36,175 nucleotides of DNA, taken from NCBI GenBank assembly GCA_015067075.1, contig SVND01000026.1:1-36175 (forward strand). The letters are read 5' to 3'. This stretch comes from Oscillospiraceae bacterium (GTDB taxonomy: Bacteria > Bacillota > Clostridia > Oscillospirales > SIG530). Within the stretch, counting starts at the first letter, position 1. The number at the start of each line of letters is the position of its first letter. Below, piece after piece: positions 29,336-36,175 of the stretch. Below the pieces are notes generated by a model, which was not told where the DNA came from, made no database searches, and saw nothing but the letters and a program-made list of their open reading frames with translations. The position numbers and the translations under genes were made by a program.

Positions 29336-29740
29336 ATGTATTGTAAACATTGCGCAAATCTCATGGACGAACAGGCTGCTGTATGCGTTAAATGCGGATG
29401 CCCCAAGGGCTCCGGTAACAGCTATTGCCCCAACTGCGGAAACGCAACTATGGAGCAAGCCGCCTTCTGCGTAAACTGCGGCGCCGCACTCTCTCAGCAA
29501 GCTCAGCCTGCCGCAAGCGGTGAGCTCAAGTCAAAGATGGCAGCCGGTCTTCTCGGCATTTTCCTTGGTGCCTGGGGTATACACAATTTCTACCTTGGCT
29601 ATACAGGTAAGGCTGTAGCTCAGCTTATTCTTACTTTCGTAAGCTGCGGTATCGGCGGTATCTGGGGCTTTATTGAAGGCATACTTATTCTCACAGGTTC
29701 TATCAACAAGGACGGTAAGGGCAATCCCCTTCGCGACTAA
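29336..29740 (+). CDS. Zinc-ribbon/TM2 domain membrane protein
   Basis: A 134-residue protein. Two zinc-ribbon-like CxxC pairs are followed by a further set (MYCKHCANLM, CVKCGCP, YCPNCGN, FCVNCGA), covering residues 1-50. After a short linker comes a TM2 domain with two transmembrane helices: AAGLLGIFLGAWGIHNFYLGYTGKA, then LILTFVSCGIGGIWGFIEGILIL. The G-x-x-x-x-H-x-F-Y-L-G signature of TM2 proteins is present. Family function is unknown. AAAGGAG precedes the ATG. It lies 43 bases after the topoisomerase A gene with no obvious promoter, so it may be co-transcribed. A terminator follows. Confidence 0.9.
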   Translation: MYCKHCANLMDEQAAVCVKCGCPKGSGNSYCPNCGNATMEQAAFCVNCGAALSQQAQPAASGELKSKMAAGLLGIFLGAWGIHNFYLGYTGKAVAQLILTFVSCGIGGIWGFIEGILILTGSINKDGKGNPLRD

Positions 29741-29897: not shown

Positions 29898-31604
29898 ATG
29901 GAAAAAATATTTAACATAAGCAGTTACGCTTCCCTTTTTGACGGCGACGATTGCACGCCCGCAGTGCTTGCCGCTATAAACGATGCCGAGGAAAACGGCG
30001 GCGGTACTATCGTTTTCGACAAGGGCGAATACCATTTTTATGAAAAACATTCTGTAAAACACAATTGTCTGCCATACGGCAACGGCGGCGGTATTAAAAA
30101 CATCCCCTTCGCCTTTATCGGCAAATCAAACATCACCGTCGACGGTGGAAATTCCGATTTCATTTTCCACGGAATGATAACGCCATTCGTTTGTGACAAT
30201 GCTAAAAACATCGAGCTTCGCCATTTTACGATTGGCTTTGACCGCCCCTTCCACACGGAAATGACTGTTACGGCAAGCAACGACGAGGAAAAGTGGTTTG
30301 ACGCTGTAATCGACCAAAACACATTCCCCACACACATCTCGGAAGGCAGACTCAACGCTTACTCGCCTTACATGGAGCTTGCCTCCCCCAACGGATACCT
30401 TATCACGGAATATGACGGCGCTTTGCGTGAGCCTGCTCACAACAGCCGTTACTATGTTTTAAACCGCGAAAAGCCCGCCGACCTTGAAAATTATACAGAT
30501 GACGGCTTTTTCGGCAACTTCTGGGTAGAGGCTACGGGCGAGGACACGCTCCGCGTTTATATGCCCAACAAGCACATGCCGAGAGTCGGTAATGTAATGA
30601 CCTTCCTCAACGACGGCAGACAGTGCTGCTCCATTTTAATGCACGAAAGCGAAGATATCCGTCTTTCCGACATTGATATTTTCGAAAGCGCCGCTATGGT
30701 AATCGTCGGTCAGGTCACAAAGGACATTTCCCTTGACGGAGTTCGCATCAGACTTCGCAACGAAAATGAAAAGGGCTACGATCCCAAGCGAGTCGTTTCC
30801 TGCACCGCTGATGCAACGCATTTTTGCAACTGCATGGGTAAGCTTTCCATGACAAACTGCGTTTTCGACAATATGCTCGACGACGGCACAAATATCCACG
30901 CCGTTTACAGCCTTGTAACAGAGCGCATTTCGTCAAACTCCTTCGCCGCTCGCGACGACGGAAACAATCCTCATTTCTATCGTGTCGGCGATACGGTAAG
31001 CATTATGAAGCTTGCCACGTACGGCGAGGTATGCAGAGCCGTTATCACCTCCATTACCGACAGACCTGAAAAGTGGGATAAGGTTTACACCTTCGACCGC
31101 GAGATTCCCGACGTAGTTGACACAGTTGAGCATTACGTTATGGATAACATGACGACAGTTCTTTCCGAAACGTACATTTCCAACGTAACTACGGGATACA
31201 ACCGTCCTCGCGGCTTCCTTATTGCAACGCTCGGTAAGGTCGTTATCGAGGATTGCACCTTCCACAGCTCCTCTACAGGTATTTTCATGCAGCCCTTCGG
31301 CTACGGATGCCTTGAAAGCCAAGGCGTTGAGGATGTTACTATCCGCCGTTGCCGTTTCGTAAACTGCGGCTATGCCGACGATTGTGCAGCCATATGGATC
31401 GATCCCGTAATCAAGGAAGGTATGGCGCCCGTTCATAAAAACGTATCCATCTACGACTGCATTTTCGAATCCTTCGGCGCACCCTCTATTGAGGCAAACA
31501 ATACGCAAAACCTGCAGATATACAACAACACTTATATACACACGACTGCATATCCGCAGATAAAATTCAACCACCAGGTCATTTTAAAGGATTGCAATTT
31601 ATAA
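29898..31604 (+). CDS. GH110-like beta-helix glycosidase, copy 1
   Basis: A 568-residue protein predicted to form a right-handed parallel beta-helix. The N-terminal DDCTPAVLAAINDAEENGGGTIVFDKGEYHFYE is the usual capping segment of pectate-lyase-fold enzymes. The core segment VSCTADATHFCNCMGKLSMTNCVFDNMLDDGTNIH matches the pattern of GH110 alpha-1,3-galactosidases, which remove terminal alpha-galactose from blood-group B or linear glycans; the Asp-Asp pair in MLDDGTNIH is the likely catalytic site. There is no signal peptide, so it should be cytoplasmic and act on imported oligosaccharides. AGGAGG precedes the ATG. A paralogue follows at 31746. The assignment is by motif resemblance and is the best guess within beta-helix glycosidases. 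Confidence 0.7.
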   Translation: MEKIFNISSYASLFDGDDCTPAVLAAINDAEENGGGTIVFDKGEYHFYEKHSVKHNCLPYGNGGGIKNIPFAFIGKSNITVDGGNSDFIFHGMITPFVCDNAKNIELRHFTIGFDRPFHTEMTVTASNDEEKWFDAVIDQNTFPTHISEGRLNAYSPYMELASPNGYLITEYDGALREPAHNSRYYVLNREKPADLENYTDDGFFGNFWVEATGEDTLRVYMPNKHMPRVGNVMTFLNDGRQCCSILMHESEDIRLSDIDIFESAAMVIVGQVTKDISLDGVRIRLRNENEKGYDPKRVVSCTADATHFCNCMGKLSMTNCVFDNMLDDGTNIHAVYSLVTERISSNSFAARDDGNNPHFYRVGDTVSIMKLATYGEVCRAVITSITDRPEKWDKVYTFDREIPDVVDTVEHYVMDNMTTVLSETYISNVTTGYNRPRGFLIATLGKVVIEDCTFHSSSTGIFMQPFGYGCLESQGVEDVTIRRCRFVNCGYADDCAAIWIDPVIKEGMAPVHKNVSIYDCIFESFGAPSIEANNTQNLQIYNNTYIHTTAYPQIKFNHQVILKDCNL

Positions 31605-31745: not shown

Positions 31746-33449
31746 ATGAAAAAAATATTTAATATAAACAACTACCGTTCACTTTTTGATGGCAACGATT
31801 GTACGCCTGCTGTGCTTGCAGCTATAAATGATGCCCAAGAAAATGGCGGCGGTACTATCGTTTTCGACAAAGGCGAATATCATTTTTATGAAAAACACAC
31901 TTTAAAGCATTTTTGCGACCCTTACGGCAGTCCCGGAATTAAAAGCATCGCCTTTCCCCTTATCGGCGTTTCCCATATTTCCGTTGACGGCGGAAATTCC
32001 GATTTTATTTTTCACGGCTTGATAACGCCTTTCGTTTGCGAAAAATCAAAAAATATTACACTCCACGGCTTTACGCTAAGCTACAACAGACCCTTCCATA
32101 CTGAAATAGTCGTTAAAGCTGTAAACGACAAGGAAAAATGGTTTGACGGCTTTATCGATCAAAAGCTGTTTCCAACTCATATAACAGACGGAAGACTTAA
32201 TGCCTATTCACCTTACATGGAACTTTCCTCCCCATTCGGCTATCTCGTTACAGAATACGACGGTGCGTTGCGTGAGCCCGCATATGATAAGGGCTACTAT
32301 GTTTTAAACCGTGAAAAACCCGCCGACCTTGAAAGCTATACAGATGACGGCTTTTCCGGTAACTTTTGGGTAGAATCCACAGGGGAAAATACTGTGCGTA
32401 TCCATATGCCCAACAAAAAAATGCCCAAGGTCGGAAACGTCATGACCTTCCTCAACGACGGCAGACAGTGCTGCTCCATAATTATGCACGAAAGTGAAAA
32501 CATCAGCCTTTCCGATATCGACATTTTAGATTGTGGCGCTATGTCCATTGTCGGTCAGATGTCGAAGGACATTTCGCTTGACAGCGTGCGTGTTCGTCTT
32601 CCCAAGGAAAACGAACACGGATATAGCTCGGCCCGTGTCGTTTCCTGTACAGCCGATGCTACGCACTTTGTCAACTGTATGGGCAAGCTTTCAATAACTG
32701 ATTGCGTTTTTGAAAATATGCTGGACGACGGCACAAATATCCACGGAATTTACAACGTCATCACAGAGCGTATTTCCTCAAACACGATTGCATCAAGAAA
32801 TCACGTCCATCAGACATTTTTCTTCCGAAAAGGCGATACCGTAAGTTTTCTCAAGCTCGCCTCCTACAGCGAAGTCGGCAGAGCCGTTATCACATCCGTT
32901 ACGAAAAGGCCCGAAAAAGACGATGTTGTATACACCTTCGACCGCGAAATTCCCGACGTAGTTGACACGGTTGAGCATTACGTTATGGACAATATGACGA
33001 CCGTCCCAACCGAGGTTTACATTTCAAATGTCGTCACAGGAAATAACCGTCCCCGCGGCTTCCTTATTGCAACTCAGGCAAAGGTCGTTATCGAGGATTG
33101 CACCTTCCACAGCTCCTCAAGTGGTATTTTCATGCAACCCTTCGGCTACGGATGCCTTGAAAGCCAAGGCGTTGAGGATGTTACTATCCGTCGTTGTCGT
33201 TTCGTAAACTGCGGCTATGCCGACGATTGCGCCGCTATTTTAATCTCCCCCAACGTCAAGGAAGGTATGGCGCCCGTTCATAAAAACGTATCCATCTACG
33301 ACTGCATTTTCGAATCCTTTGGTGCACCCTCTATTGAAGCAAACAACACGCAAAATCTCCAGATATACAACAACACTTATATACACACGACTGCATATCC
33401 TCAGATAAAATTCAACCACCAGGTCATTTTAAAGGATTGCAATTTATAA
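31746..33449 (+). CDS. GH110-like beta-helix glycosidase, copy 2
   Basis: A 567-residue paralogue of copy 1 along its whole length. It has the same capping segment (NGGGTIVFDKGEYHFYEKH), the same core motif (VSCTADATHFVNCMGKLSITDCVFENMLDDGTNIHGIY) with the Asp-Asp pair, and no signal peptide. Divergence is spread through the first two thirds (for example residues 55-80 and the segment after the DDGTNIH motif). The last 63 residues are identical to copy 1, and the DNA there differs only at a few silent sites. AGGAGG precedes ATG 31746. It has its own promoter and terminator. Substrate preference may differ from copy 1, while the C-terminal end has been kept identical, possibly by gene conversion. 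Confidence 0.7.
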   Translation: MKKIFNINNYRSLFDGNDCTPAVLAAINDAQENGGGTIVFDKGEYHFYEKHTLKHFCDPYGSPGIKSIAFPLIGVSHISVDGGNSDFIFHGLITPFVCEKSKNITLHGFTLSYNRPFHTEIVVKAVNDKEKWFDGFIDQKLFPTHITDGRLNAYSPYMELSSPFGYLVTEYDGALREPAYDKGYYVLNREKPADLESYTDDGFSGNFWVESTGENTVRIHMPNKKMPKVGNVMTFLNDGRQCCSIIMHESENISLSDIDILDCGAMSIVGQMSKDISLDSVRVRLPKENEHGYSSARVVSCTADATHFVNCMGKLSITDCVFENMLDDGTNIHGIYNVITERISSNTIASRNHVHQTFFFRKGDTVSFLKLASYSEVGRAVITSVTKRPEKDDVVYTFDREIPDVVDTVEHYVMDNMTTVPTEVYISNVVTGNNRPRGFLIATQAKVVIEDCTFHSSSSGIFMQPFGYGCLESQGVEDVTIRRCRFVNCGYADDCAAILISPNVKEGMAPVHKNVSIYDCIFESFGAPSIEANNTQNLQIYNNTYIHTTAYPQIKFNHQVILKDCNL

Positions 33450-33505: not shown

Positions 33506-36175
33506 TTACTTTTTATTCTTTTTCTTCGCAATCAGTATTCCGCCGCCTGCCGCCGCAACAGCCGCTGCCGCAGGAATAGACACGATTGCCCACATAGGCA
33601 TGCCTTCGGAAGGCTTTTCTTCATCCGTTTCATCATTCTCATTGCCGCCGCCGGGCTCATCGTTCGCTACGGGAGTCGGCGTAGGAGTGGAATCAGGCGC
33701 AGGCGTAGGTATTGGCGTTTCCGTAGGTGTGGGCTGTTTTTTCATAACGTATCCACACTCGTCACAGCAATCGTCCTCATCGCCATCCGCATGAGCACCC
33801 TCGCCGCAATCCTTCCATACAGGTGTAAGCTCAATATTTCCCGTCAGCTTATCGCCCTTCTTTACAGGCTCACCGGTCGCTTTATCTACCCAGCCGTCAA
33901 ATTTATTTCCATCTTCCGTCGGCGGAAGCGTCGGCAATGCAGGCACAGTTTGTTCATCGCCCTTGGTGAGCATTTCCTTTACCGCAGGCGCAGACGTACC
34001 GCCGCTCGGTGTAACAGGCTTCCCATCGGGAGCCGTTGTAGGTGTAGCCTCGGGAGCAGTAGTAGGTGTGCTATCGCCAGGCGTGGACGGTGTTTCAACG
34101 ATTTGAGAATAGTCCGGTATTATAACAACATACTTATCATCAGGCTTTGTCAGTTTGTCAATAGTCTGGCTTACAGTATAGCCGCAGACGTTGCATTTAC
34201 GCTGTTTTTCGCCCTCGAAAGTATATCCCGCCTTCTTTACCGTCGTCCATTCGCCCATCTTATGAGCACCTTTCGCCGTCACCTCATGGCAATGTATACA
34301 TTCCTTCCAGTGCTCGTCGTTCGTATTCTTGTATTCATACTCGTGAGCTGTCGCGGAAACCTCGCCATCCTTCCACGAGTGACCGCATTCACAGGTATGC
34401 GTTGTATATCCGCCTTCCTTGCAGGTCGGCTTCGTTACAGAATCGGTATACTTATGTGTATGACCGCCTGTCAGCTTCGGAATAGGCTCCTGCTTTACGT
34501 AATCGCAGTCGTTGCAATAGTAAGAACGCTCGCCTTCTTCCTTCTCCGTAGCTTCCTTTGTGACCTCGCTCGTGCCGAAAATATGTACGTCAGCGTTAAG
34601 TTTTGCATCACAGCCGTCACCGCATACTATCCAGTGCTCCGTCTCGTCATATTCTATCTTCGAAGAATCTTCAATGCAATGGTCTCCCACATCGCAATAA
34701 TGGCTTCGCCATTCATTGCTGTTTACGCAAATTCCATGGTTGCATCCAAACGCCTTTGCCGCGTCCTCACAGCACTCCTTACAAAGCTCGCAATCACCGC
34801 ACGTGTCAACGCAGTTTTCGCAGATTCCGCATTCCTCGCAAACCTGTGCGCAAACCGAGCAATACTCGTTACATGAATCGCAGATAGCATCGGCACAATC
34901 TCCGCAGTAGTAGCAATCTATGCACATTGCGTCGGCGCAGTCCATGCATATTCCGCAATCGGGGCAAAATTCACTGATGCATCCCGAACATTTTCCACAT
35001 TCCTCACAAACGCTCTCTGCGCAGTCGCGGCATACTATACCGCAATCCTCGCATATTTCCGTGCATTCGCCGCATTGATAGCAATCCTCGCACCAAAGAT
35101 CTCCTGCACAGTTGCGGCAAATATCGCATGATGCGCAAAATTCGTCACAGCAGGATGAGCACTGTTCTCCGCATTCAGGGCATATATCAGCACAGCTTTC
35201 ACAGCCCTCTCCGCATTGGCAAACAACCGTGCATTCGCCGCAAAGTCCGCAATTTATACAAAAGCCATCTGCACCGGAGCAGTTTATACATTTACCGCAG
35301 TCAACGCACAGCTCGTCGGAGCAGTTTTCGCACGCTTCGCCGCAATCCATGCAAACTACCGCGCAGTTCGAGCATCCGTTTCCGCAGGAGCAAACGACAC
35401 CTGCGCAGTTACTGCAAAGGTAACACTCCGAACAGAAATTGTCAGAGCCAACACAGGACACGCACATACCGCAGTCAACACATATTTCATCCTCACTGCA
35501 GTTGGAGCATTTTTGCGCACAGTCAAGACAAACGGTTGCACAGTTAGAGCAGCCCTCGCCGCATTCGCAAATCGCCTCTGCACAATCTCCGCACATCATA
35601 CATTCACCGCAAAATTCTTCCGCGCAATCGGCACAGGTATTACATTGCGTGCAAAGCTCTCCATCGGCGCAGTTTTCGCATTTTTCACCGCATTCCGGAC
35701 ATATTACGGCACAGTTGGAACATCCGCTTCCACAGGCGCAGACCTCGCCCACGCAGTTTATACACTCGCCGCATTCCGAGCAGTAGTTGCCCTCGCCTCC
35801 GACGCAATCCCAGCAGATTCCGCAGCTTCCGCATATCTCGTCGTCAGCGCAGGCTTCACATTTTTCGTTGCATTCCATGCATATCACGGCACATTGCACG
35901 CATCCGTTTCCGCAGATGCAAATATAGTCTACGCAGTTTTTACATTCACCGCATTCGGTACAGTAGTTGCCCTCGCCTCCTACACAGTCAAAGCAGACTC
36001 CGCAGCTTCCGCATATCTCGTCGTCAGCGCAGTTTTCACATTTTTCACCGCATTCCATGCATATCACGGCACATTGCACGCATCCGTTTCCGCAGATGCA
36101 AATATAGTCTACGCAGTTTTTACATTCACCGCATTCGGTACAGTAGTTGCCCTCGCCTCCTACACAGTCAAAGCA
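33506..36175 (-). CDS. Cysteine-rich repeat surface protein, membrane-anchored (N-terminus beyond window)
   Basis: The last 889 codons of a large protein whose reading frame stays open to the right window edge, so start and signal peptide are not seen. About the first 478 visible residues are an unbroken array of CxxC pairs spaced three to seven residues apart, rich in Asp, Glu and Gly and poor in basic residues; near the edge the unit is 60 residues long. A middle part follows with HTHKYTDS, HTCECGHSW and ECIHCHEV segments known from Firmicutes surface proteins. Then come a Thr/Pro-rich stretch, an InlB-like repeat (KFDGWVDKATGEPVKKGDKL), a second Thr/Pro stalk and a C-terminal helix with a KKKNKK tail. 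No LPxTG motif is seen, so membrane anchoring is likely. The array could bind metals or be a disulfide-linked stalk. Function is unknown. Confidence 0.85.
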   Translation of the reverse strand, partial: CFDCVGGEGNYCTECGECKNCVDYICICGNGCVQCAVICMECGEKCENCADDEICGSCGVCFDCVGGEGNYCTECGECKNCVDYICICGNGCVQCAVICMECNEKCEACADDEICGSCGICWDCVGGEGNYCSECGECINCVGEVCACGSGCSNCAVICPECGEKCENCADGELCTQCNTCADCAEEFCGECMMCGDCAEAICECGEGCSNCATVCLDCAQKCSNCSEDEICVDCGMCVSCVGSDNFCSECYLCSNCAGVVCSCGNGCSNCAVVCMDCGEACENCSDELCVDCGKCINCSGADGFCINCGLCGECTVVCQCGEGCESCADICPECGEQCSSCCDEFCASCDICRNCAGDLWCEDCYQCGECTEICEDCGIVCRDCAESVCEECGKCSGCISEFCPDCGICMDCADAMCIDCYYCGDCADAICDSCNEYCSVCAQVCEECGICENCVDTCGDCELCKECCEDAAKAFGCNHGICVNSNEWRSHYCDVGDHCIEDSSKIEYDETEHWIVCGDGCDAKLNADVHIFGTSEVTKEATEKEEGERSYYCNDCDYVKQEPIPKLTGGHTHKYTDSVTKPTCKEGGYTTHTCECGHSWKDGEVSATAHEYEYKNTNDEHWKECIHCHEVTAKGAHKMGEWTTVKKAGYTFEGEKQRKCNVCGYTVSQTIDKLTKPDDKYVVIIPDYSQIVETPSTPGDSTPTTAPEATPTTAPDGKPVTPSGGTSAPAVKEMLTKGDEQTVPALPTLPPTEDGNKFDGWVDKATGEPVKKGDKLTGNIELTPVWKDCGEGAHADGDEDDCCDECGYVMKKQPTPTETPIPTPAPDSTPTPTPVANDEPGGGNENDETDEEKPSEGMPMWAIVSIPAAAAVAAAGGGILIAKKKNKK
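35641..36175. repeat. 180-bp tandem repeats inside the cysteine-rich gene
   Basis: The sequence repeats with an exact 180-base (60-codon) period: 35641-35820, 35821-36000 and 36001 to the edge. The last two units are almost identical, differing at only a handful of bases; the first is more diverged. The array continues beyond the window. Confidence 0.9.

Follow-up and report, generated by a model that had tools for sequence, protein, structure and literature searches.

An exported cysteine-array protein family of gut Clostridia with putative metal-clamped stalks

We analyzed a contig of 36,175 nucleotides from an Oscillospiraceae bacterium (this whole stretch is called the window here), one end of which carries part of a gene for a surface protein with a dense array of CxxC pairs. 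By sequence comparison, the protein belongs to a previously unnamed small family of gut Clostridia. We consider it moderately probable that the exported, surface-anchored array binds a metal, most likely zinc, through its CxxC pairs, and that the metal would clamp the chain into a stiff, protease-resistant rod.

A cysteine-dense gene at two contig ends

The gene lies at positions 33506..36175 on the minus strand, as an open reading frame (ORF) that is open at the contig end and encodes the C-terminal 889 residues of the protein. Cysteine accounts for 151 of these residues (17%), the mean for the remaining ORFs of the window being 1.8%, and the net charge of the product is -112. We counted 81 CxxC motifs, compared to 25.5 +/- 4.3 (maximum, 39) in composition-preserving shuffles. 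Residues 1 to 480 hold 133 Cys and 77 CxxC motifs, versus 36 +/- 4 after shuffling. The features of the gene, all on the minus strand, begin with a regular array of approximately 60-residue units with 16 Cys each (residues 1 to 343; 35147..36175), in which the two 180-nt units at the contig end are identical at 174 of 180 positions. A less regular CxxC array (residues 344 to 478; 34742..35146) aligns 1:1 with relatives. It is followed by Cys/His spacer modules (residues 478 to 675; 34151..34744) with the motifs CxHGIC, EHWxxCGxGC, HTHEYT...GGYTTHTCxCGHSW, and CNVCGYT, by a first Thr/Pro stalk (residues 693 to 730; 33986..34099), and by a weak match to the Listeria-Bacteroides repeat (Flg_new, PF09479; 33827..34003; E=5.6e-5, 23.6 bits versus a Pfam cutoff of 27). 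A second Thr/Pro stalk (residues 814 to 858; 33602..33736) leads to a C-terminal hydrophobic anchor (residues 859 to 883) with a KKKNKK tail (33509..33601). The initial annotation had described a Cys-dense CxxC array over about 480 residues, a Thr/Pro stalk, and a membrane anchor, and the counts and shuffles confirmed both this description and its coordinates. The contig end cuts the gene, however, and leaves only its C-terminal part in the window.

The genome of the window (G000, in which the window is contig C44) contains a single other array site, at the end of contig C15 (3-1808, minus strand), with 75 to 77% identity to the window array in the best-matching units. The C15 ORF starts with MKKQLERIISILMCAVLIFG, whose basic n-region and hydrophobic stretch resemble those of a signal peptide. 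Next come a segment that is acidic and rich in His (HIHLDDHGHEQTETEHDDHG...), another hydrophobic stretch with SVTAYA at its end, a conserved Cys/His domain, YEDGVECEYCGGWRYDDWKCENGDHCGEGADGDCYEEHHC, and then 60-residue units like those of the window, open at the contig end. The C15 piece is without a C-terminus and the window piece is without an N-terminus, and both stop within near-identical 180-nt repeats; no dovetail overlap between the ends of C15 and C44 was found. Since relatives hold both halves in a single ORF, we infer that the two pieces are one gene, and the C15 piece is very probably the N-terminal part of the window gene. The initial annotation had taken the protein to be exported and had proposed looking for an export signal upstream; fittingly, a signal-peptide-like start was present on the C15 piece as well as in the full-length relatives.

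Repeats related to the Cys/His spacer modules (KEPTEDEEGETTFTCVTCSHTKTEPIDKL) were also observed elsewhere in G000, in a surface protein that is seemingly split between contigs C69 (L008:3387-6086) and C53 (L009:3-1148). This break at repeats is the same assembly trouble at surface repeat genes as that seen for the Cys-array gene.

Family members, the 60-residue unit, and gene neighbors

One scan of genome contigs yielded nine loci from Clostridia/Oscillospiraceae MAGs, and the source records of five of them name the colon or rectum of sheep, roe deer, or water buffalo. Eight of the nine loci are full length (983 to 1402 residues, 171 to 270 Cys). An order-level search added G126 (1244 residues), G185 (about 1370 residues, 314 Cys, with a dockerin), and G355 (665 residues, 114 Cys, with a dockerin), and a class-level search with the N-terminal domain added G627 and G752. 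Weak order-level matches in G170, G284, and G391 were rejected as members, since they are SPFH zinc-ribbon proteins. The family is rare: the sequence search found carriers in 4 of 394 genomes of the order, including that of the window, and in two more genomes of a class sample of 391. No relatives were found among viral contigs or among plasmids.

The members (L022 to L029 and L031 being full length) share a layout of leader, Cys/His domain, 1 to 15 units, spacer, stalk, and variable anchor. Full-length proteins have about 9 to 15 units, and the divergent G355 member has one recognizable unit. The proteins contain 114 to 314 Cys, about one residue in every four to six, and the relatives each contain 69 to 170 CxxC motifs. 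In the leader of most members (L022 to L031 and L007), a His-rich stretch separates the first hydrophobic segment from an AxA-like site that precedes the Cys domain; this stretch is absent in L033/G355. Cleavage by signal peptidase at the AxA-like site would remove the His segment. The Cys/His N-terminal domain has an invariant His beside Cys.

The anchor is a transmembrane (TM) segment in most relatives. SLH repeats take its place in L028 (E=1.7e-19), Dockerin_1 domains were detected in L032 and L033 (E=5e-7 and 8e-12, respectively), and cohesins were present in all four of the carrier genomes searched. The window anchor is without LPxTG, and no member has this motif before its TM segment; a match to Gram_pos_anchor reached 10.2 bits, under the cutoff of 20. 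Since the SLH and dockerin domains of the relatives work only extracellularly, we place the array outside the cell. A cytoplasmic array, which might be read from the additional hydrophobic segment behind the His linker, was rejected in view of the SLH and dockerin relatives and the positive C-terminal tail. Directly behind the Cys-array gene of L057 lies a second CxxC-rich protein (L057:1493-3694, minus strand), with carboxypeptidase-regulatory-like repeats and a dockerin.

Alignment of the units (n=132-134) revealed 16 Cys columns in the pattern CxC-x3-CxxC-x3-CxxC-x3-CxxC-x4/5-CxxCxxCxxC-x5/7-CxxCxxCxxC-x3/4. All 16 Cys were present in 102 of 108 complete units, exactly one was missing in the other 6, and two were missing in none; the losses are thus single and never paired. 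In the family alignment, Cys columns were 99.4% kept (2047/2060 cells), compared to 89% for conserved D/E/G/N columns. Three orthologues have His in place of Cys at unit position 56; as the position is orthologous, the three changes may be one event. Replacement of Cys by Asn was observed at unit position 3, and one case was merely a re-spacing of CxxC. AF2 modeling of the 480-residue array with a 10-row alignment gave an unusable result (pLDDT 50). For a two-unit segment of the window with a 35-row alignment, the best model reached a pLDDT of 89 and a pTM of 0.70, and the remaining four reached 78, 55, 53, and 48, so that one of five was confident; in this best model, short bridges recur every 6 to 8 residues.

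In relatives, the Cys gene is usually the last gene of a run with recurrent partners. One of these, c1, is a surface protein containing "IDDVTITGIDAP..." repeat domains. In 8 of 15 loci it is encoded separately in the vicinity of the array, and in L056 the two are fused (hhalign probability 99.6, E=8.5e-25). DUF6935 lies near the Cys gene in seven loci, and further recurrent partners are c3 (a 190-residue TM protein), c6 (small and lipoprotein-like), and DUF4428. On C15, the order from upstream to the Cys gene is c1, c3, DUF6935, DUF4428, and Cys gene. Genes for an SPFH plus zinc-ribbon protein, a zinc-ribbon YdjG-like protein, and a TPM protein are all near the Cys gene in L024, L027, and L029, and the latter two are near it in L022. 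Each of the ten carrier genomes has one SPFH Band_7_1 gene, located on a different contig in G000 (C84:4891-5559). PspA (PF04012) was detected in none of the ten and in 9 of 14 control genomes; the Ydj-like module apparently works without PspA in the carriers. Membrane LuxR regulators (7TM+GerE) adjoin the gene in L027, L032, L033, and L056. A solute-binding lipoprotein and a membrane LuxR regulator near the Cys gene on C15 (L007:7842-10980) are conserved in L057 and form a possible binding-protein-fed one-component sensor.

Downstream of the Cys gene in the window, and convergent with it, we observed tandem paralogues of 568 and 567 amino acids (29898-31604 and 31746-33449, plus strand). Their near-identical C-terminal thirds point to a recent duplication, and they look beta-helix-like by eye. 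Beside them, a small protein is encoded (29336-29740, plus strand) whose two CxxC pairs resemble those of zinc ribbons.

Metal, disulfide, or free thiol

A search for thiol oxidases that covered DsbA and VKOR found neither in the ten carrier genomes; among the 14 controls, DsbA was present in 8 and VKOR in 3. These absences, together with the unpaired Cys losses, the changes from Cys to His, and the invariant His that adjoins Cys in the N-terminal domain, favor metal (probably zinc) over disulfides. The sub-threshold Foldseek matches to zinc-finger entries, described below, point the same way. The anaerobic gut host also argues against a disulfide-laced stalk, in which Cys would pair outside the cell and covalent cross-links, rather than metal, would hold together a rod or coat. 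The extracellular location, the near-invariance of Cys, and the use of disulfides and/or metal by the CxxC-rich VSPs of Giardia are consistent with such a stalk, which we nevertheless regard as unlikely. Metal capture, a redox-active or disulfide-rigid stalk, and a surface layer had been named as possible roles in the initial annotation; the data favor a metal-clamped rigid stalk among these, without settling the matter.

In the metal-clamped rod that we favor, a divalent metal would be bound by successive CxxC knuckles. Zinc, held as Zn(Cys)4, is the likeliest candidate, and each unit could take as many as four ions, giving tens in a molecule. The metal would clamp a chain with little other hydrophobic core, yielding a stiff, acidic, protease-resistant surface rod. 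Precedents are the zinc-binding CX2C membrane proteins of L. lactis and the metal-dependent protease resistance of VSPs, both discussed below. The Asn at unit position 3 is at odds with Zn(Cys)4 coordination and counts against this model. The array protein may partner the c1 surface protein in an envelope-protection layer, which membrane-embedded LuxR proteins would regulate, with the array gene sometimes placed beside the SPFH/TPM/zinc-ribbon membrane module.

Tens of potential sites per molecule and the His/Asp/Glu linker of most members would also suit a surface metal trap, a protein that primarily collects or detoxifies zinc or soft metals in large amounts and passes them on or keeps them off the cell with the involvement of the His-rich leader. 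Such a trap appears quite improbable, since no metal transporter was noticed among the recurrent neighbors, Rfam (including riboswitches) gave no match in eight loci, and the His-rich segment is missing in L033 and elsewhere precedes the AxA-like cleavage site, where it may be removed. Least probable is a shield or redox sensor in which mostly free thiols scavenge oxygen and electrophiles, and in which the envelope-stress module and the LuxR regulators receive a signal of their oxidation. The very dense thiols on the surface of an anaerobe, neighbors similar to the YdjGHI envelope module of B. subtilis, and the nearby membrane LuxR regulators speak for it. Against it, a simple thiol store would have no need of 16 positions fixed in each unit at almost constant spacings, none of the ten genomes has PspA, and regulator adjacency is not universal.

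On a broader and rather doubtful reading, metal-clamped polythiol rods could make up a surface organelle or coat. Such rods would represent a novel type of metalloprotein scaffold outside the cell, each molecule holding about 50 metal sites and attached by exchangeable anchors (membrane, S-layer, scaffoldin), with membrane LuxR sensors linking it to an envelope-stress module.

Comparison with known systems

The array had no match in Pfam, NCBIfam, or PDB sequences, and Foldseek with the confident two-unit model returned nothing significant (best E=0.85), in agreement with the earlier view that no characterized family has such a layout. In VIA-align, the best Z was 2.3, for the sole chain listed above Z 2, so that the absence of other folds carries no weight. 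We found no description of the array in the literature, and nothing relevant on DUF6935 or on Cys-rich rumen proteins. A ferredoxin array had likewise been dismissed at the outset, rightly so: the motif CxxCxxCxxxCP was absent from the window and C15 pieces and occurred one to three times per relative, and Fer4 gave no match.

The cross-brace zinc domains LIM, FYVE, PHD, and RING resemble the array as chains of CxxC knuckles, and the LIM core includes CxxCxxCxxC. All 14 of the sub-threshold Foldseek matches were entries with zinc-finger domains of these four types, a list that composition may bias; no significant sequence or fold match links these domains to the array.

In some array loci, a likeness to B. 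subtilis ydjFGHI (YdjG/H/I plus PspA; PMC11237479, PMC8581546) is limited to the neighbors, which comprise a zinc-ribbon membrane protein, a TPM protein, and an SPFH plus zinc-ribbon protein. The published account of the operon contains nothing that corresponds to the Cys protein, and since PspA is missing from the ten genomes, the neighbors are not the published Psp circuit. The L. lactis membrane proteins Llmg_0524 and Llmg_0526 are zinc-binding CX2C proteins linked to envelope integrity (PMC4628341). By description, their CxxC-pair zinc sites and membrane anchoring in a Gram-positive bacterium liken them to the array proteins, but they have one CX2CX10CX2C site each, compared to dozens of CxxC pairs in the array.

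CxxC-rich surface proteins are a kind already known, and the setting of the array family, in anaerobic bacteria without DsbA or VKOR, was unexpected. Gram-positive anaerobes have been described as keeping cysteine out of exported proteins ("cysteine exclusion"). An exported Cys-array family without these oxidases contradicts this notion and offers a clean test of external thiols in the anoxic gut. Its anchors are exchangeable, its partner protein is fused to the array in one relative, and candidate regulators lie near it. The family may also be seen as a bacterial counterpart of the CxxC coats that intestinal protozoa carry. Like the VSPs of Giardia (PF03302), whose protease resistance is governed by metal and reducing state (PMC6341118), the array proteins combine many CxxC pairs in an exported ectodomain with a single C-terminal TM segment and a gut habitat. 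Unlike VSPs, they are bacterial, with regular 60-residue units, a His-rich leader, SLH or dockerin anchors in relatives, and a KKKNKK-type tail in place of the conserved VSP tail. They do not belong to the VSP family, since PF03302 gave no match at E<=1 for the window and C15 pieces or at E<=0.1 for the relatives. The protozoan VSP coat is most likely the nearest parallel by function, analogous rather than homologous.
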